From the NCBI GenBank assembly GCA_022705135.1, contig JAKJFA010000015.1:1771-40218 (forward strand): a stretch of 38,448 nucleotides of DNA, in the 5' to 3' direction. The position numbers and the translations under genes are program-made. This DNA comes from Pseudomonadota bacterium (GTDB taxonomy: Bacteria > Pseudomonadota > Gammaproteobacteria > Burkholderiales > Rhodocyclaceae). Positions 6,066 to 32,736 of this stretch are shown here, one piece after another. Below the pieces are notes generated by a model. The model had not been told where the DNA came from. It was given only the letters and a program-made list of their open reading frames with translations, and did no database searches. The first letter of the stretch is position 1. Each line of letters opens with the position of its first letter.

Positions 6066-6401
6066 ATGCCCGCCACCCGTCTCACCACCCGCAGCGCTTC
6101 CCCGCAGCACATCTGGCAACTCGAACGGCAGGGCCTGCACCCACTGCTCGCCCGCCTGTACGCGGCACGCGGCGTGCAGGATGCCAGTGAACTCGATTAC
6201 CGCCTCGAACATCTGCTGCCGCCGGCCAGCCTCACCCATGCTACCGAAGCCGCGTGCCTGCTGGCCGACGCCATCGAGACCGGGGCGCGGCTCTTGATCA
6301 TCGCCGATTACGATTGCGATGGCGCTACGGCCTGTGCCGTCGGCATTCGCGCCCTGCGCGCCTTTGGCGCCGAGGTCGATTATCTGGTGCCGGCCTGCTG
6401 A
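6066..6401 (+). pseudogene. recJ: recJ 5' fragment A (truncated)
   Basis: This open frame of 111 codons is the N-terminus of RecJ, the single-strand 5'-3' exonuclease. Compared with the intact copy at 10353-12041 it is about 89% identical in protein up to LVP (base 6393), including the first DHH motif (ADYDCDGATACAV). It then stops after two foreign codons. The last 55 bases before the break (6339-6393) are identical to the intact gene. The remaining DHH motifs, DHHA1 and OB domains are missing, so it cannot be a nuclease. A TATAGT box at 6032-6037 could still drive it. Its place next to divergent lolC suggests this is the original position of recJ and that incoming DNA displaced the rest of the gene downstream. 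Confidence 0.88.
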
Positions 6402-6414
6402 AGATTTAACTATC

Positions 6415-6433
6415 TAATTCGACCCTGGCCCCC
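6415..6433 (+). repeat. Direct repeat, left copy
   Basis: The 19-base sequence TAATTCGACCCTGGCCCCC recurs in the same orientation at 8383-8401 with a single C/T difference. The two copies bracket the CGGC/peroxiredoxin/rhodanese cassette. Immediately after this copy, 6431-6451 forms a perfect 8-bp hairpin (CCCTAAAT, loop TATTG, ATTTAGGG). The copy lies 21 bases beyond the break in recJ fragment A. Confidence 0.75.
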
Positions 6434-6507: not shown

Positions 6508-6957
6508 CTAATCATAAAGCGTCCGCGTCGCCTTATCCGCCATCGTGGGCGCAATCAAAGGTTGCCATTCCGGGCCGTCCCACGTTCCGAGGCAGGTATG
6601 CGTTTCCAGATATTTAGTGGGAATGGGGTGGGTTCCGACTACCACCTGCACGGGATAGCGTTGCTCGAGAAAAGCCCTGAAGGACGAAATGTACGGACAG
6701 GGAGGGTAGCCAACCACCATGCCGGTTGCCAGGTGGATGACCTCGGCCCCGTTTCTGGCCATTTCGTCCACCGCGTATTCGATGTTGCCGCCGGGGCAGC
6801 CATCGCAGGTCGTGAATCCGACCAGTTCAAGCTCGGTATCATTGCTGTAGATGCTGAAGGCGCCTTCCTTGTTCCGCATAGCCCGCAGGCATTTCCCGCC
6901 AGCGCAACGGCGATAGCGGTCACAGATGATGATGCCGACTTTCTTTTTTTGCGTCAT
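6508..6957 (-). CDS. CGGC-domain protein, probable metal-binding
   Basis: A 149-residue protein with the cysteine pattern of the CGGC domain family: an N-terminal CxGGxC cluster (RRCAGGKCLRA, about residues 18-24), a central TTCDGCPGGN cluster and a YPPCPY motif near residue 85. The N-terminal VGIIICDRYRRC and the CPGGNIEYAV segment are typical. The family is thought to bind a metal or carry redox cysteines; no enzyme activity is established to my knowledge. The start at 6957 has GGAGGG about 8 bases upstream. It is the last gene of the cassette and is separated from the upstream peroxiredoxin by a strong terminator at 7090-7115, so it is probably transcribed from its own promoter within 6958-7085. 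Confidence 0.8.
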   Translation of the reverse strand: MTQKKKVGIIICDRYRRCAGGKCLRAMRNKEGAFSIYSNDTELELVGFTTCDGCPGGNIEYAVDEMARNGAEVIHLATGMVVGYPPCPYISSFRAFLEQRYPVQVVVGTHPIPTKYLETHTCLGTWDGPEWQPLIAPTMADKATRTLYD

Positions 6958-7153: not shown

Positions 7154-7867
7154 CTATTTTTCCATCTTGGGGTTCCAGACTTCCCAGATCTTGCCGACCA
7201 ATGCTGGCCCGGGTTTCAGGGCGGGCTGTCCTGGTTCCCATCCTGCTGGTGTCGCCTCGGCACCCTTGGTGGCGCGCACATGCTGGAAGGCTTGAACCTG
7301 GCGTATGGTTTCCGCCAGTTTACGGCCGACCGGTGGGGTCATGACTTCCATGGCCTGTATGACGCCATCCGGATCAATAATGAAACGGCCCCGCATTTCG
7401 ATGCCCTGCACTTCATCCCAAACTCCGTAAGCGCGGCCGATATGGCCGGCCTGGTCAGAGGCCATATGGAAGGGCACGCCGCCGTCGACCATGCGGCTCA
7501 GTTCGTGATCGTTCCACATCTTGTGGACAAAATGGCTATCCACGCTGACCGAAATGACTTCGACTCCCAAATCCTGCAACTTCTTGTACTGATCAGCGAC
7601 CGCTGATACTTCGGTGGCTCATACAAAAGTAAAGTCGCCGGGATAAAAGCAGAGCATGACCCATTTGCCCAGATAATCGGAAAGCCTGACCGGGGTGAAT
7701 TCACCCTTGTAATAGGCGGGCGCCGTAAAATCCGGGGCCTTTTGCCCGACGCGTACCGACATTGTCCTCTCCTTCTTTTCCACGGGTTGATTTGCGGCGG
7801 CTTCTTCTGGCGCTTCGCCAGCCACCGAGCCTGTGACACGGGCGCATCCTTTCGGTTCTTCAGCCAT
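7154..7867 (-). CDS. Selenocysteine-containing peroxiredoxin (UGA read as Sec83)
   Basis: An AhpC/Prx1-type peroxiredoxin whose frame is broken only by one UGA, at 7621-7619. Read through, it gives 237 residues: an extension of about 35 residues with one Cys (C8), the Prx core from residue 36, and the active-site loop [19 protein letters not shown], where UGA falls exactly on the peroxidatic Cys and the conserved Thr (T85) follows. The partner Arg ([12 protein letters not shown]) and the AhpC-like C-terminus PAGWEPG are present, but the resolving Cys normally just before PAGW is a Thr. A SECIS-like hairpin follows the UGA. The ATG at 7867 has AAGGAG 8 bases upstream. Promoter and terminator are intact. 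Sec peroxiredoxins (PrxU) are known in anaerobes such as Eubacterium acidaminophilum. A nonsense-mutated gene is the alternative. Confidence 0.85.
7592..7621 (-). promoter_or_regulatory. Bacterial SECIS-like element including the Sec UGA
   Basis: After the UGA (7621-7619) and an 11-base spacer, the minus strand has ATCAGC, loop GGTC, GCTGAT: a perfect 6-bp stem with a 4-base loop. The first loop G lies 17 bases after the UGA. Bacterial SECIS elements need a stem-loop just downstream of the UGA with G residues (GGU) at the apex; the E. coli fdhF element has GGUCU about 18 bases away. Flanking GTA and TAC could add an outer stem with a bulge. Confidence 0.75.
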
Positions 7868-7990: not shown

Positions 7991-8383
7991 TTATTTCTCG
8001 CGCGGGAAAGGCCAGGCCATGACGCCGCCTTCCATCACCTTGATGTTGGTCCAGCCATGCCCTTCCAGCACACGGGCCGCTTCGTAGCCACGCAGCGAAA
8101 TTTTGCAGTAGCAGATGATTTCAGCGTTCTTGTCAGCGGGCAGTTCGTTGAGGCGGTTGCGCAAGGCGCCAAGCGGTATCAGGTGTTCGCCGATGCCCAG
8201 ACGCATCTGCTCGAATTCATCCGGTCCGCGGGTGTCGAGCAGGAAGGGCTTTTCGCCGGCATCGACCTTCTTTTTAACGTTGGGAAAAGGTGCCAGGCTC
8301 GAATTTCTATGGGCAATATGAATGAAGTGGCAAACCGGCAAGGTGGATTCTGGGGCGGCGTGGCGTTGGAAAAATGCTACCAT
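7991..8383 (-). CDS. Rhodanese-domain protein, probably 5'-truncated
   Basis: The C-terminal 90 or so residues form a rhodanese domain: LLDTRGPDEFEQMRLG, then IIPLGAL-like residues (LIPLGALRNRL), then the active-site loop with Cys93 (CYCKISLRG) and the closing VMEGGVMAWPF. Rhodaneses carry persulfide sulfur on that Cys. The segment closely resembles the C-terminal rhodanese domain of FAD-dependent CoA-disulfide/polysulfide reductase-like proteins, and the first 30 residues look unrelated. The only nearby ATG, at 8383, falls inside the right-hand direct repeat. I infer a gene cut at its 5' end when the cassette was formed, with a start supplied by the repeat. Upstream of the peroxiredoxin by 123 bases, with the peroxiredoxin promoter in between. 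Confidence 0.65.
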   Translation of the reverse strand: MVAFFQRHAAPESTLPVCHFIHIAHRNSSLAPFPNVKKKVDAGEKPFLLDTRGPDEFEQMRLGIGEHLIPLGALRNRLNELPADKNAEIICYCKISLRGYEAARVLEGHGWTNIKVMEGGVMAWPFPREK

Positions 8384-8401
8384 AATTTGACCCTGGCCCC
8401 C
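8383..8401 (+). repeat. Direct repeat, right copy
   Basis: TAATTTGACCCTGGCCCCC matches the copy at 6415-6433 at 18 of 19 bases in the same orientation. Read on the minus strand (GGGGGCCAGGGTC followed by AAATTATG) it resembles the GGGGTCAGGTC-type sequences often seen next to REP-associated transposase genes in proteobacteria; that link is only a resemblance. The ATG in it is the putative start of the rhodanese frame. Confidence 0.7.
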
Positions 8402-8474
8402 AGCACGCATCAGCCCTTTCCCGCCCTGCAATATTCCGGCTTTGGCCGCAATGTCTCTTCGGTTTTGCGCTGCG

Positions 8475-8480
8475 TATAAT
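8475..8480 (+). promoter_or_regulatory. Duplicated recJ promoter, -10 box of copy B
   Basis: TATAAT sits 8 bases before the ATG of recJ fragment B in the context GCGTATAATC. The same context occurs before the intact recJ (10339-10344), and TGTCTCT is shared about 25 bases upstream in both. The promoter region was therefore duplicated together with the coding part. No good -35 hexamer is visible in either copy. Confidence 0.5.
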
Positions 8481-8488
8481 CCGGCACA

Positions 8489-8740
8489 ATGACCCGTCTC
8501 ACCACCCGCAGCGCTTCCCCGCAGCACATCTGGCAACTTGAACAGCAAGGCCTGCACCCACTGCTCGCCCGCCTGTACGCGGCACGCGGCGTGCAGGATG
8601 CCACTGATCTGGATTACGCGCTGGAACGCCTGCTGCTGCCCGTCAGTCTGACCCATGCTTCCGAAGCCGCAGCGTTACTGGCCGAAGAAGGATATGAAGC
8701 GGTAAACCAGCAAGGTGAATTCGAGATCGGCATGGCATGA
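8489..8740 (+). pseudogene. recJ: recJ 5' fragment B (truncated, mosaic)
   Basis: This 83-codon frame matches the RecJ N-terminus through about residue 66 (base 8685) and then continues as an unrelated tail (EGYEAVNQQGEFEIGMA) to a stop at 8740. By hand alignment its first 112 or so coding bases differ from fragment A at about 3 positions but from the intact copy at about 16. The next 82 bases differ from the intact copy at about 10 and from A at about 21. It is therefore a mosaic of A-like and C-like sequence. It lacks every RecJ catalytic motif. The foreign tail may be the end of a gene brought in with the decarboxylase module; I do not recognise it. Confidence 0.85.
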
Positions 8741-10352: not shown

Positions 10353-12041
10353 ATGACCCACCTCACGACGCGTAGCGCTTCTCCCCGCCAGATCTGGCAG
10401 CTTGAGCAGCAAGGCCTGCATCCCCTGCTCGCCCGGTTGTACGCGGCACGCGGCGTGCAGGATGCCGCTGATCTGGATTACGCACTGGAACGCCTGCTGC
10501 CCCCCGCCAGCCTGACCCACGCTGCCGAAGCCGCAACATTGCTGGCCGACGCCATCGAGGCCGAAGCGCGGCTACTGATCATCGCCGATTACGATTGCGA
10601 CGGCGCTACCGCCTGCGCGGTCGGCATTCGCGCCCTGCGCGCCTTTGGCGCCGAGGTCGATTATCTGGTGCCGGATCGCTTCAAACTCGGCTACGGCCTC
10701 TCACCCGATCTGGTCGACATCGCCGCCCGCCGTGAGCCGGATCTGATCATCACCGTCGATAACGGCATCGCCAGTATCGAAGGCGTCGCCCGCGCCCGCG
10801 AACACGGCATCGCCACGCTGATCACCGATCATCATCTGCCCGGCGAGGCGTTGCCAGAGGCCGATTGCATCGTCAATCCCAACCAGCCCGGTTGCGCCTT
10901 TGCCTCCAAAAACCTGGCCGGGGTTGGCGTCCTGTTTTACGTCATGCTGGCGCTGCGCGCCGAACTGCGCGCACGCGGCCATTTTGCCGAACGGCCCGAA
11001 CCCAATCTGGCGCAACTGCTCGATCTGGTCGCGCTCGGCACCGTTGCCGATGTGGTCAAGCTCGACGGTAATAACCGCATTCTGGTCAGCCAGGGCTTGC
11101 AGCGCATGCGTGCAGGCCGCATGCAGCCGGGCATCGCCGCGCTCTTCCATGCCGCTGGCCGCAATCCGGTACAGGCCACCGCTTTTGATCTCGGCTTTTT
11201 GCTCGGCCCGCGCCTCAATGCCGCCGGACGGCTGGCCGATATGGCGCTCGGCATCGAATGCCTGATCACCGACGATACGGCGCGCGCCAACAACATCGCC
11301 CAACGCCTCGACGATTTCAATCAGGAGCGACGCAACATCGAAGCCAGCATGCGCGAACAGGCGCTGGCCATTCTGGAGCGCATGGAAACGGAAGTGGAAG
11401 CCCCCGGCATCGCCCTCTTCGATGAAAGCTGGCACGAGGGTGTGATCGGCATTCTCGCTTCCCGCATCAAGGACAAGCTGCATCGGCCGGTTTTTGTTTT
11501 TGCCCGCAGCGAGAGCGGCGACTTGAAAGGTTCCGGCCGTTCGATTGCCGGATTGCACTTGCGCGATGCGCTCGACCTCATCGCCAAGCGCTTTCCCGAT
11601 CTGCTCGTGCGCTTCGGCGGACACGCCATGGCCGCCGGCGTCACGCTGCGCACTGGCGATTTCGAGCGTTTTCGTCAGCTTTTTGCCGAAGTGGCCGGCG
11701 AATTGATCGCCCCCACCGATCTGGATCGCTGCCTGACCACCGATGGTGGCCTCGAAACCGGCTATTTCTCAATCGAAATCGCCCGTTTGCTCGAACGCGA
11801 AATCTGGGGGCAGGGCTTTCCCGCACCGCTTTTCGTTGATGAATTCGAGGTCGAGGAGCAAAAGGTGCTGAAGGAAAAACACCTGAAACTGAAGCTCAGG
11901 AAAGGGGCCATGCGCATCGACGCCATCCAGTTCAATTTCAGCGCCCAACCGGGCAGCAAGACCCGCGCCGCTTACCGGCTGGAAATCAACGACTATATGG
12001 GCGTGCAACGGCCGCAACTGGTCATCGAGTACCTGGAATAA
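10353..12041 (+). CDS. recJ: Single-stranded-DNA-specific exonuclease RecJ (intact copy)
   Basis: A complete 562-residue RecJ. The DHH phosphoesterase motifs are present: ADYDCDG (about 78-84), TVDNG (134-138), TDHH (158-161) and the ALGTVAD segment (228-234). The DHHA1 domain follows with GRSIAGLHLRDAL and FGGHAMAAG (421-429), then the C-terminal OB-type domain ending in YMGVQRPQLVIEYLE. RecJ degrades 5' ends of single strands in recombination and mismatch repair, with Mn/Mg bound by the Asp and His residues. This is the only complete copy of three 5' ends in the region. Its first 108 codons are duplicated upstream with divergence, so the gene appears to have been rebuilt downstream of two inserted modules. 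Start and length agree with the family. Confidence 0.96.
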   Translation: MTHLTTRSASPRQIWQLEQQGLHPLLARLYAARGVQDAADLDYALERLLPPASLTHAAEAATLLADAIEAEARLLIIADYDCDGATACAVGIRALRAFGAEVDYLVPDRFKLGYGLSPDLVDIAARREPDLIITVDNGIASIEGVARAREHGIATLITDHHLPGEALPEADCIVNPNQPGCAFASKNLAGVGVLFYVMLALRAELRARGHFAERPEPNLAQLLDLVALGTVADVVKLDGNNRILVSQGLQRMRAGRMQPGIAALFHAAGRNPVQATAFDLGFLLGPRLNAAGRLADMALGIECLITDDTARANNIAQRLDDFNQERRNIEASMREQALAILERMETEVEAPGIALFDESWHEGVIGILASRIKDKLHRPVFVFARSESGDLKGSGRSIAGLHLRDALDLIAKRFPDLLVRFGGHAMAAGVTLRTGDFERFRQLFAEVAGELIAPTDLDRCLTTDGGLETGYFSIEIARLLEREIWGQGFPAPLFVDEFEVEEQKVLKEKHLKLKLRKGAMRIDAIQFNFSAQPGSKTRAAYRLEINDYMGVQRPQLVIEYLE

Positions 12042-25487: not shown

Positions 25488-25825
25488 TTCTTGCCCTCCT
25501 TCGCCCTATTGATCGAATAGCGCGGAATTTCGACCACCAGTGGCGTTTCGCCGACAATCGCCTGACAACCCAGACGGGAATTGGGCTCCAGTCCCCAGGC
25601 CTTGTCGAGCAGGTCTTCCTCAATCTCTTCCGCCGGTTCCAGAGAATTGAAGCCTTCACGCACAATCACGTGGCAGGTCGTGCAGGCACAGGACATTTCG
25701 CAAGCGTGTTCAAGTTCGACGCCATTGGACAGCAGATTTTCGCAGATCGATTTACCGGCTTCAGCTTCGATCACAGCGCCTTCCGGGCACAACTCGACAT
25801 GCGGCAAGACGATGATTTGGGTCAT
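25484..25825 (-). CDS. fdx: ISC-type [2Fe-2S] ferredoxin
   Basis: A 113-residue adrenodoxin-like ferredoxin. The cluster Cys residues are in [11 protein letters not shown] plus the later SRLGCQAI. It supplies electrons for cluster assembly on IscU. The start overlaps the hscA stop by 4 bases and the end overlaps iscX by 4 bases, so expression is coupled. The N-terminal [18 protein letters not shown] is typical of bacterial Fdx. Confidence 0.95.
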
Positions 25826-27723
25826 GATTTTTCCCCTCTGTTCTCCATTTTTCCCAACGCATCCAGCTCTTCCAGCGTGCGGCCGGACAGGGCACGATTG
25901 ATGTTCTGATCCATGCGGCGCTGGGCGAATTCCTGCGTTCCGCGCCCCAGTTCATCCATGGCCCGGTTGATCTGCACGCGGTTGTCGCCGAGCAGGGTCG
26001 TCTGCAATTTGCCGATGGCCGCCTGAATCTGGGCAATTTCAGTAGCGGAAAGCAGGTGCGCATCCTGCGCCAGCGCGGCGCTGGTCGCCTCGATCAGGCG
26101 CTGCGCCTCGACCTGCGCTTCCTTCAAGGCGCGGCGCTGGGCGTCGTCCTTGGCATGCGCCAGCGAATCCTTCAGCATGCCAGTCACCTCGTCGTCGGAA
26201 AGCCCGTACGACGGCTTGACGGTAATGTTGGCCTCAACGCCAGTCGTCTGCTCGCGCGCCGACACCGACAGCAAACCGTCGGCATCGATCTGAAACGTCA
26301 CGCGGATGCGCGCCGCCCCCGCCACCATCGGCGGAATGCCGCGCAACTCGAAGCGCGCCAGCGAACGGCAGTGCTCGACCAGCTCGCGCTCGCCTTGCAC
26401 CACGTGAATCGCCATCGCCGTCTGGCCGTCCTTGAAGGTGGTGAATTCCTGCGCCCGCGCCACCGGAATGGTGGCATTGCGCGGAATGACCTTTTCGGCC
26501 AGTCCGCCCATGGTTTCCAGTCCCAGCGATAGCGGGATGACATCGAGCAGCAGCCAGTCGTCGCCGCTGGCGCGGTTGCCCGCCAGCAGATTCGCCTGCG
26601 TGGCAGCGCCCAGCGCCACCACCTTGTCCGGGTCGAGATTGGTCAAAGGCTGCTGGCCAAACAATTCGCCCACCGCCTGCTGCACTTGCGGCATGCGCGT
26701 GGCGCCGCCGACCATGACCACGCCTTTGATGTCTTCCGGCTTCAGACCAGCATCGCGCAGGGTTTTCTTGACCGCTTGCAGGGTCTTGGCAATCAGCGTT
26801 TGGGTGATACCGGCGAAGGTGTCGACATCGAGTTTGAGGTCGATCACCTCGCCGGTGGAAAGTTGGGCCGTCATCGGCGCTTCGGCATGCGTCGTCAGGT
26901 ATTCCTTGGCTTCCCGCGCTTTCGCCATTAACAACCGCGCATCGTTCGGCGACAGCGGCTGCGGCCGCGCCTGCTCCAGCGTCCAGCAAAACACGCGATG
27001 ATCGAAATCGTCACCGCCCAAGGCCGAATCGCCGCCGGTCGCCAGCACTTCGAAAATGCCGCGCGTCAGTCTCAGAATGGAAATATCAAACGTGCCGCCA
27101 CCGAGGTCATAAACGGCGTAAGTGCCTTCGGCTGCGTTATCCAGCCCATACGCCACCGCCGCCGCGGTCGGCTCGTTGATCAGGCGCAGCACATTCAGCC
27201 CGGCCAGACGGGCCGCATCCTTGGTCGCCTGCCGTTGCGCATCGTCGAAATAGGCCGGCACGGTGATGACTGCCCCCACCAGTTCGCCGCCGAGCGCCGC
27301 TTCCGCCCGCAGGCGCAGGCTTTTGAGAATTTCAGCCGAAATCTCGACCGGACTTTTGACGCCGGCGCAGGTCTTGAGTTTGAGCATGCCCGGCGTATCG
27401 ACAAAGTCGTAGGGCATGGCCTCGATGTGGGCGATGTCCCTGAGGCCGCGCCCCATGAAGCGTTTGACGGAAACCACGGTGTTGTGGGGATCACGGGCCT
27501 GATGGCGCTCCGCCGCGTAGCCGACTTCCGTCGTGCCATCGGGCAAATAGCGCACGATGGAAGGCAGCAAGGGGCGGCCATGCTCGTCGGCCAATACCAT
27601 CGCCAGACCACTACGAACGGTCGCGACCAATGAATTGGTGGTGCCCAGGTCGATGCCCACCGCCAGCTTGTGCTCATGCGGGGCGGCAGATTCGCCGGGT
27701 TCGGCAATTTGAAACAGAGCCAT
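25822..27723 (-). CDS. hscA: Fe-S assembly chaperone HscA
   Basis: A 633-residue Hsp70 of the HscA type: the nucleotide-binding domain starts at [14 protein letters not shown], with [14 protein letters not shown] (about residue 195) and the [10 protein letters not shown] motif (about 340). The substrate-binding domain follows, then a helical lid. It takes apo/holo-IscU by its LPPVK motif together with HscB. The extended N-terminus ([12 protein letters not shown]) and the isc context separate it from DnaK. In most isc operons hscA follows hscB closely; here 744 bases with an inserted cassette lie between, and no clear Shine-Dalgarno sequence is seen near 27723. Confidence 0.95.
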
Positions 27724-29908: not shown

Positions 29909-31120
29909 TTAGTGGGCGGCCCACTGCACCGTATTCAAATCCACGCCTTCCTGCACCATCTCCCACAGCGGTGACATTTCGCGCAGTTTGCCGATCTTTT
30001 CGTGCAACTGCTTGATGGCGTAATCGATTTCCTCTTCGGTCGTAAAACGGCCAAGGGTGAAGCGGATGGAGGAATGCGCCAGTTCGTCGTTGCGCCCCAG
30101 CGCGCGCAACACGTAGGACGGTTCCAGGCTGGCCGAGGTACAGGCCGAGCCGGACGAGACGGCCAGATCCTTCAGCGCCATCATCATCGATTCGCCTTCA
30201 ACGTAGGCAAAGCTGATATTCAGGTTGTGCGGCACGCGCTGTTCGAGGTCACCGTTGACGTACGTGGCCGGCAAATCCTGAATGCCTTTCAAAAGGCGGT
30301 CGCGCAACGCCCCGATGCGCCGGTTTTCTTCAGCCATCTCGGCCTTGGCGATGGCGTACGCCTCGCCCATGCCGACAATCTGGTGCGTCGCCAGCGTGCC
30401 GGAGCGGAAACCGCGCTCATGGCCGCCACCGTGCATCTGCGCTTCCAGCCGCACGCGCGGTTTGCGGCGCACGTACAGGGCGCCGATGCCCTTGGGGCCG
30501 TAAGTCTTGTGGGCGGAAAAACTCATCAGATCGACCTTGAGCGCCGCCAGATCGATGTCCACCTTGCCGGTCGCCTGCGCCGCATCGACATGAAAAAGGA
30601 TGCCCTTGCTGCGGCAAATCTCGCCAATTTCGGCAATCGGCTGGATCACGCCGATTTCATTGTTCACCAACATTACCGACACCAGCACGGTGTCAGGCCG
30701 CAAGGCCGCCTGCAAGGCTTGCAGATCAATCAGGCCGTTTTCCTGCACATCGAGGTAAGTGACTTCAAAGCCCTCGCGCTCGAGTTCACGGCAGGTATCG
30801 AGCACCGCCTTGTGCTCGGTCTTGACGGTGATGATGTGCTTGCCCTTGGTCCCGGCATAGAAATGCGCCGCGCCCTTGATGGCAAGATTGTTCGATTCGG
30901 TCGCGCCGGAGGTCCAGACGATTTCCTTGGGGTCGGCATTGACCAGCGCCGCCACCTGCGCCCGCGCATGCTCGACCGCTTCTTCCGCCTTCCAGCCGAA
31001 GCTGTGCGAGCGCGAGGCCGGATTGCCGAAGAACTCGGTCAGGTAGGGGATCATTTTTTCGGCCACGCGCGGATCGACCGGGGTCGTCGCCGAATAATCG
31101 AGATAGATAGGCAGTTTCAT
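29909..31120 (-). CDS. iscS: Cysteine desulfurase IscS
   Basis: A 403-residue class V PLP enzyme: N-terminal [19 protein letters not shown] Lys in [12 protein letters not shown] and the catalytic Cys in a long flexible loop ([21 protein letters not shown]), followed by the C-terminal helix ending [11 protein letters not shown] that contacts IscU. It converts L-cysteine to alanine and hands persulfide sulfur to IscU, thiouridine enzymes and others. I take the ATG at 31120 because it gives the classical N-terminus ([10 protein letters not shown]); a TTG at 31141 would add seven residues. A second desulfurase gene lies immediately upstream. Confidence 0.96.
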
Positions 31121-31154
31121 GACTTTTTCACTTTCATTCAAAACCTCTTGATGT

Positions 31155-32312
31155 TCAGATCGTCACAGCGGTCATTCGTTTCAAAGAAACCGAAATTTCT
31201 TGCAGCGCAGCAAGAAAGCACTCGACCTGATCCAGAGTATTCGCCACGCCCAAGCTCACCCGTACCGCGCCAAGCGCCACTTCCGGCGCCACCTGCATTG
31301 CCAGCAGGACGTGCGAGGGCCCCGGATGCACGCTGGAGCAGGCCGAGCCGCTCGCCACCGCAAAACCGGCGCGGTCGAGCTTGCCAACCAGGGTTTCGCC
31401 GTCAATCTCCGGAAAAGCGAAAAAACTCGTATTCGGCAAACGCTTGGCCGATTGGGCAAAAATCTGTGCCCCCATGGCCAGCAGCCCGGCCTCCAGCCGG
31501 TCACGCAGGACTCGCAGACGCTGCGGCGCTTCATTCAGGCGCTGCGCCGCCAGTTCGCAAGCTACGCCAAAGCCAACGATGGCCGCGACATTCTCAGTGC
31601 CAGAGCGCAGATCGCGTTCCTGCCCGCCACCGGCAATGAGCGGCTGCAATTCAACCCGCTTATCGACCACCAGCGCCGCCGCGCCTTGTGGGCCATAAAT
31701 CTTGTGCGACGAAATCGTCATGGCCCGCACCCCTGCCGCATTGAGGGCTCGAAAATCCAGCGGTAAACGGCCCAACGCCTGCACGGCATCGGTATGAAAG
31801 CAGGCATTTGCTGCTTTGGCTGTAGTCGCCAGTGTTTCAATCTCCTGAATGACGCCGGTTTCGTTGTTGGCTAGCATGATCGAAACCAGTTCCGGCATAT
31901 CCAGCAGAGATTCGGCAAAGTCGTCGGCATCGATAATGCCGCATGTATCAACTGCCAGTTTGTGCAGTAACCACCCTTGTTTCGCCAGTTGTTCGGCCGG
32001 TCGCAACACCGAGGGATGCTCGATGGCACTCACCACCAGAAGGCCGGGACGACGACAAGCCACCACGCCTTTCATCAACAGGTTGTTGGCCTCGCTGCCG
32101 CCGCTGACGAAAATGAGTTCAGTCGGATGCGCGCCCACCGCCGCCGCCACCTGCTGGCGCGCCGCATCAATAGCCGCCCTTGCCATACGGCCATATTCGT
32201 TGCGGCTGGAAGCATTGCCGAAGCGCTTGCCCAGCCAGGGCAACATCGCCTTGCGCACCGCGGGATCAAGCGGTGTCGTGGCATTGTGGTCGAAATAGAC
32301 AGGCTGGAACAT
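31155..32312 (-). CDS. Second cysteine desulfurase (NifS/IscS-like)
   Basis: A 385-residue class V PLP enzyme, clearly a paralogue of IscS and not a duplicate: N-terminal [18 protein letters not shown] Lys in [12 protein letters not shown] and catalytic Cys in [20 protein letters not shown]. The loop and C-terminus differ from IscS, and the IscU-contacting tail is absent, so the sulfur acceptor may differ. It lies 4 bases after the iscR stop and 34 bases before iscS, in an arrangement I recall from betaproteobacteria. The start ATG at 32312 gives [10 protein letters not shown]; the frame can extend upstream to 32348 but overlaps iscR. Confidence 0.9.
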
Positions 32313-32316
32313 GGCT

Positions 32317-32736
32317 TCAGTCTGCCGCCTTCTGCAACTCGCGTTCAACCAGACTTTGCAGCGACACGCTATCCAGATACTCGTACATTTTGCGGTTGAG
32401 GCTTTCCCACAAATCGTGCGTCATGCAGCAATGCTGATCGCAGCAATCCTGGTGCCCGTGGCATTGCGTCGCATCAAGCACTTCGTCCACGGCCCGCACG
32501 ATGTGCGCAACCGTAACCTCCTCGGCCGGGCGCGCCAAGCTGAAGCCGCCGCCGGGGCCACGCACGCTGGTCACCAGTTCCCGCCGACGCAATTTACCGA
32601 ACAACTGCTCCAGGTAGGAAGGCGATATTTTCTGGCGCTCACTGATGCTGGCCAGCGTCACCGGACCGGATTGGCTGTTCATCGCCAGGTCAACCAGGGC
32701 GGTCACAGCAAAGCGCCCTTTCGTCGTCAATCGCAT
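32317..32736 (-). CDS. iscR: Rrf2-family Fe-S cluster regulator IscR
   Basis: A 139-residue Rrf2 regulator. The winged helix-turn-helix is in the first 65 residues (MRLTTKGRFAVTALVDLA; KISPSYLEQLFGKLRRREL; VRGPGGGFSLA), and the cluster region has the Cys-rich HGHQDCCDQHCCMTH with a preceding C (ATQCHGH), compatible with the C92-C98-C104-H107 ligand set. With a [2Fe-2S] cluster it represses isc genes; it senses cluster demand. GGGAGG precedes its ATG. It is second in the operon behind cysE, with 52 bases between. Confidence 0.95.
   Translation of the reverse strand: MRLTTKGRFAVTALVDLAMNSQSGPVTLASISERQKISPSYLEQLFGKLRRRELVTSVRGPGGGFSLARPAEEVTVAHIVRAVDEVLDATQCHGHQDCCDQHCCMTHDLWESLNRKMYEYLDSVSLQSLVERELQKAAD

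Follow-up and report, generated by a model that had tools for sequence, protein, structure and literature searches.

A PrxU-type peroxiredoxin gene with a predicted selenocysteine codon and a conserved second start in a Rhodocyclaceae genome

Here, we report a gene in a 38,448-nucleotide stretch of Rhodocyclaceae DNA (the window, meaning the whole stretch analyzed) that almost certainly encodes a PrxU selenoprotein, a peroxiredoxin whose peroxidatic residue is predicted to be selenocysteine (Sec), inserted at an in-frame UGA. The assignment follows from the score of the read-through protein against the PrxU model, the conservation of TGA at that codon, the presence of selA, selB, selD, and tRNA-Sec in the same assembly, and a covarying hairpin downstream of the codon, which together support the selenoprotein interpretation put forward in the original prediction. 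That prediction had also stated that Sec-containing peroxiredoxins are already known, and passages of three papers describe them as established (PMC13188914, PMC1088965, PMC1794560). The prxU gene is thus a known but easily misannotated kind of protein gene: gene finders that take UGA only as a stop split such genes, and here several independent lines support read-through. The window adds a PrxU member in a lineage where PrxU is rare. The gene also has a second start, an N-terminal cysteine arm, and flanking recJ fragments, on all of which the original prediction was silent (Table 1).

Table 1. Coordinates of prxU, its elements, and the flanking recJ copies in the window
Feature	Position	Strand	Details
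prxU long frame	7154..7867	(-)	237 residues, Sec83 (TGA), stop TAG
UGA codon for predicted Sec83, peroxidatic position	7619..7621	(-)	Codon 83; TGA in 80/80 fetched related loci
N-terminal arm with Cys8	7763..7867	(-)	35 residues; long form only
Cys8 codon, candidate resolving residue	7844..7846	(-)	Cys in 82/82 aligned proteins
Short frame from internal ATG (7762-7760)	7154..7762	(-)	202 residues, usual AhpC-type N-terminus
Internal Shine-Dalgarno AAGGAG before ATG 7762	7769..7774	(-)	Sequence and set comparison
SECIS-type hairpin	7592..7607	(-)	6-bp stem AUCAGC/GCUGAU; covariation and bSECIS criteria in passages of PMC13188914
Partial 5' recJ copy	6075-6425	(+)	82% identity over residues 2-118
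Partial 5' recJ copy	8489-8686 (from 8492)	(+)	90% identity over residues 1-51

Translation of the long frame from 7867 to 7154 gave one internal stop, the TGA at 7621-7619, which lies in the context FTFV-TGA-ATE at the catalytic Cys position of an otherwise open peroxiredoxin frame. Downstream of it, 154 sense codons with intact peroxiredoxin motifs run to the TAG stop; both observations agree with the original prediction. Among the control signals that had been described as intact, the Shine-Dalgarno (SD) sequence was found (AAGGAG before the ATG at 7867), and the promoter and terminator were not distinguishable from chance: a scan gave one sigma-70-like site (7970-7943, 10/12 matches) where shuffled sequence averaged 1.0, and one terminator-like hairpin (7115-7096) where it averaged 2.3. 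TGA terminates 9 of the 17 open reading frames checked in the window and is therefore an ordinary stop there, so a general reassignment of UGA was rejected.

The read-through protein scored 391 bits against NCBIfam model NF040737 (PrxU; cut-off, 270), with the match spanning protein residues 6-235 and profile positions 2-233, and 193.6 bits against the AhpC model TIGR03137, below the cut-off of 272. It shares its superfamily and peroxidatic position with the Cys-type AhpC/2-Cys peroxiredoxins (TIGR03137), but its C-terminal resolving position is Thr206, where a typical 2-Cys member would have Cys. Unlike the window PrxU, a Cys-type paralogue on another contig of the same genome (G000:C69; TGC at the peroxidatic codon) has a peroxidatic Cys and a C-terminal resolving-type Cys (EVCPAKW); no Cys arm was seen in the stretch of it that was inspected. 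In the plasmid collection, a prxU-annotated record from Peptoclostridium acidaminophilum matched best (62% identity over 96%) and a Chloroflexota plasmid came next (55%); the codon aligned with the window's UGA is TGA in both. PrxU of Eubacterium acidaminophilum, named as the known relative in the original prediction, was therefore the right one, given this identity and the NF040737 score. P. acidaminophilum PrxU resembles that of the window in its TGA codon, its N-terminal Cys arm, and its internal start with an SD motif, but the motif is weaker and the host and gene neighbors differ.

Relatives in named genomes were searched for with the query limited to the 154 residues downstream of the UGA, so that the choice of relatives could favor neither TGA nor Cys. 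The search found 366 relatives, of which the best 80 were fetched and checked; all 80 had TGA at the peroxidatic codon, which answers whether homologues carry UGA or Cys there. These loci were labeled Chloroflexota, Acidobacteriota, Pseudomonadota, Actinomycetota, Neomarinimicrobiota, and others. Because TGA is shared at this codon by 80/80 fetched loci, chance is ruled out for the prxU TGA, and the earlier argument that a nonsense mutation here would be an unlikely coincidence holds. Cys versions of PrxU do exist, but they are a minority in the class of one host: PrxU was matched at E up to 1e-70 in 95 of its 396 genomes, 94 of them over the cut-off, and the 99 matched places comprised 90 with TGA, 8 without a stop, and 1 with TAG only. 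A pseudogene or sequencing error, in which a nonsense mutation or miscalled base had replaced a Cys codon, would suit a single TGA in a draft assembly of 146 contigs; we consider it extremely improbable and rejected it on the 80/80 TGA count (best 80 of 366, several phyla), and the intact downstream motifs, the covarying hairpin, and the full sel machinery also speak against it. Separately, PrxU of an Anaerolineales bin (L084, the same gene as L164) has a TAA soon after its internal start (L084:3875-3877), reflecting either a pseudogene or an assembly error.

The assembly of the window (2.22 Mb, 146 contigs, 90% complete) contains the complete Sec machinery on a single contig (C85), and the presence of selA, selB, selC, and selD, on which the original prediction had been made to depend, was thereby established. 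Profile searches gave 528.5 bits for selA (cut-off, 267.9), 347 bits for selB (cut-off, 242.25), and 368.9 bits for selD (cut-off, 125); tRNA-Sec scored 61.6 bits (cut-off, 47), and its anticodon was read as tca (UCA) by ARAGORN. The selD gene has one in-frame TGA of its own, in KAAGUAAK, a site occupied by Sec in other SelD proteins. selA scored 526.1 bits in one same-genus genome, close to the 528.5 bits on C85 (scores alone compared). Across the 50 PrxU genomes examined, which supplied 50 of the 80 loci, selA was over the cut-off in 46; three of the other four had no selA match and one had a 55-bit partial match. By comparison, selA was over the cut-off in 31 of 101 related genomes, a set that includes the window's own. 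The order of the sel locus (L023:544-638 to end) is tRNA-Sec, a membrane protein, a short TusA-like protein (labeled by eye from the translation), selD, and selA with selB.

For the hairpin, the 45 nt from the UGA were aligned in 83 sequences (80 distinct), placing the stem at columns 15-20 paired with 25-30. In the window, a GGUC loop lies at 7601-7598 with a UGA-to-loop gap of 17 nt. Pair 18-27 joins two wobble positions and was a standard pair in 80/80 distinct rows, in all four Watson-Crick types (GC, 60; AU, 12; CG, 6; UA, 2). The covariation score was 0.264, compared with 0.091 (standard deviation, 0.011) in shuffled alignments, and slid controls did not exceed 0.111; one of the five covariation measures was weaker, pairs altered at both positions numbering 3 against 2.2, a value reached by 99/500 shuffles. 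The 4-bp core pairs in every row and is invariant at three of its four pairs; RNAalifold gave only this core, and the two outer pairs fail in 15/80 rows each. We regard the covariation at wobble positions as clean evidence for a putative PrxU SECIS.

The bSECIS model, as given in passages of PMC13188914 that include the Fig. 2A legend, has a loop of 3 to 9 nt, a stem of 4 to 16 bp, a G in the first two loop positions, a distance of 16 to 37 nt from the UGA, and a folding energy no higher than -7.5 kcal/mol. The prxU hairpin fits in its 4-nt loop, 6-bp stem, loop G, and 17-nt spacing, but at -7.1 kcal/mol the bare hairpin falls narrowly short of the energy limit quoted there. Stretches of 36 to 60 nt from the UGA gave -7.9 to -10.8, with the GGUC hairpin formed only in the 60-nt one; most longer stretches of window sequence fold otherwise. 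An Rfam search of the prxU region returned no SECIS family and three chance hits.

In the proposed mechanism, SelB carrying Sec-tRNA(Sec) would bind the GGUC-capped hairpin downstream of a ribosome at the UGA (7621-7619), and Sec would be inserted there rather than translation being terminated. The selenol would reduce peroxide and become a selenenic acid, which would then be resolved by a thiol, with thioredoxin-type reductants recycling the enzyme. The long form would carry a candidate resolving cysteine in its arm (Cys8), and the short form would be made without the Cys8 arm.

Long proteins were aligned for 82 members, leaving out L084, in which the arm is also present. Only three columns held Cys or Sec in all 82, namely Cys8, Cys73, and Sec83, and the usual C-terminal resolving position held Thr in 63, Met in 10, Cys in 8, and Ala in 1. 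Since the C-terminal resolving Cys is missing in most members, Cys8 is the likely residue to resolve the oxidized selenium. Further Sec forms were drawn from 37 loci (seven of which were picked for a late-beginning model match), which gave 30 unique loci after removal of 7 duplicates. An in-frame cysteine arm was present in 26/30; in L181 the arm lay in another frame, and L183, L185, and L186 were without it. The residues around the arm Cys vary in this wider set (GCARP, SCVQP, QCVTP), and the Cys itself is kept.

Of the armless Sec forms, L183 has no N-terminal Cys, and in L185 and L186 residue 2 of the apparent start is Cys. Five Cys-type close relatives of PrxU (L171, L172, L173, L175, and L176) begin MTC (MTCRIG) and have neither the arm nor a C-terminal resolving Cys. 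Because seven armless relatives thus carry Cys at residue 2 or 3 of their apparent start, the comparison suggests selection for an N-terminal thiol. Another Cys type (L177 to L179) has Phe at the Cys73 position and a Cys in PACW; one of these, L178, has an in-frame GCAR stretch without a preceding ATG. No readable site was obtained from L174. The idea of a simple rule, with an arm in Sec forms and none in Cys forms, is weakened by L183, L185, and L186 on the one side and by L178 on the other.

The resolving thiol could instead be Cys73 or an external thiol, with the arm serving, for example, metal or partner binding. Cys73 lies ten residues before Sec and is Cys in 82/82, as conserved as Cys8, and a Sec form without any N-terminal Cys (L183) exists; set against this are the seven relatives (L171, L172, L173, L175, L176, L185, and L186) that are armless and retain Cys at residue 2 or 3. 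We treat this as a serious contender that falls somewhat short of even likelihood, and it is compatible with the alternatives concerning the two starts. Resolution by Cys8 would remain the likely course.

The second start was analyzed in a first PrxU set of 83 genes (the window, two plasmid records, and the 80 loci, the best 80 of 366). When offsets of 3 to 7 codons before the conserved G-x-x-A-P-D/E-F motif were scanned, all 83 had an internal ATG or GTG at 4 to 6, the place at which ordinary AhpC proteins start, and all 83 had an SD motif of at least 4 bases ahead of it. The mean SD score was 5.94, compared with 3.25 (standard deviation, 0.24) after the six upstream codons were recoded synonymously according to the codon usage of each locus; elsewhere in these genes, at 169 control offsets, the excess never went above 0.45. 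GAG was used for Glu after Lys or Gln near the internal SD in 68/70 cases (35.9 expected). Since the shuffles ignore shared ancestry, the set was also thinned to 56, 26, and 14 genes, which left 49, 21, and 12 strong motifs (15.7, 4.7, and 3.4 expected). Taken alone, the internal motif of the window is unremarkable, with 22% of recodings equaling it, and the case rests on the set. Mean folding energy around the internal start was weaker than at 54/55 control positions. Where ATG was lacking at the internal site, the Val codon was GTG in 7/7 genes (product of local usages, 6e-5, a figure softened by the scan having let the position slide by about a codon). The synonymous-codon comparisons indicate that an internal ribosome site is maintained.

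On balance, we lean slightly toward two products being made, a long one with the Cys8 arm and a short one without it. The three armless Sec forms among the 30 further ones (L183, L185, and L186) and the armless Cys forms count against this reading. That the short form from ATG 7762 is the only product, with the upstream arm as a nonfunctional in-frame leader, would fit its usual AhpC N-terminus and the strong SD before its start. Published P. acidaminophilum PrxU, reportedly of 203 residues with Sec47, would likewise correspond to the short form only. We judge this improbable, in view of the arm Cys in 82/82 aligned proteins, the long start's own SD of at least 4 bases in 81/82 (start ATG in 80, GTG in 2), and the distance from the arm cysteine to the internal start, which is 26 to 34 codons and varies by whole codons, in frame and with no stop between in 83/83. 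Production of the long form alone, with the internal SD-like motif as a relic or a site of ribosome pausing before the Sec codon, is rather unlikely but carries more weight: the long form is the one spanned by the NCBIfam model (profile 2-233) and annotated in the P. acidaminophilum prxU record, but the motif is kept against synonymous drift, ATG or GTG follows it in 83/83, and GTG serves for Val in all seven ATG-less genes, with the softening noted above.

With two forms, prxU might be a dual-start gene across phyla, giving a long Sec form resolved by its flexible arm and a short form lacking that Cys; mixed assemblies, in proportions that depend on how strong each ribosome site is, might tune turnover against overoxidation or signaling. 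We offer this wider scheme tentatively, with less confidence than the existence of two products. If confirmed, the second start and Cys arm would suggest how a Sec peroxiredoxin without the usual resolving Cys completes its cycle, and the two-form idea could be put to a direct test in cultured hosts, for instance P. acidaminophilum or Thauera. Neither the second start nor the N-terminal Cys of PrxU was mentioned in the literature passages searched (from PMC13188914, PMC8533274, PMC1088965, PMC5109826, PMC1794560, PMC9312934, and PMC7409299); the 2001 PrxU paper, which lies outside these, may describe them.

The gene was probably acquired by transfer, through insertion. The window's own genome was the only one with PrxU over the cut-off, both among 101 close relatives and among 398 genomes of the probable host phylum. 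RecJ matches in the plasmid collection (53.6% to Mitsuaria) point to a probable betaproteobacterial host; a search of the genome for 16S found none. The window grouped with five Chloroflexota sequences (SH-aLRT, 96) and apart from 13 sequences labeled Pseudomonadota in a quick tree of 82 PrxU proteins (36/79 inner branches weak). RecJ on the window contig shares 88, 80, and 79% identity with that of three same-genus genomes, so the contig belongs to the genome, and misbinning was rejected. The full recJ lies at 10353-12041, and two partial 5' copies upstream of it flank the prxU segment. Within a stretch of about 4.3 kb, these copies separate a prxU-CGGC-rhodanese segment from a lysA segment, and they look like scars of successive insertions. 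Two same-genus genomes have a MacB-type gene about 1.1 kb from recJ, and the stretches fetched from them contained no match to prxU or lysA. A search of viral contigs gave no match, and a phage search led nowhere (23 records, each under 60% identity).

A CGGC-domain protein (6508-6957, minus strand) is encoded directly downstream of prxU. CGGC relatives occurred within 4/82 PrxU loci examined and rhodanese-domain relatives within 2/82, so there is no conserved operon. The rhodanese open reading frame (7991-8656, minus strand) has its first ~65 residues antisense to a recJ fragment, and its true start is therefore probably well inside the listed frame. Elsewhere in the window, two adjacent cysteine desulfurase genes (29909-32348, minus strand; IscS over the cut-off, NifS-like below) accompany hscA at 25822-27723.
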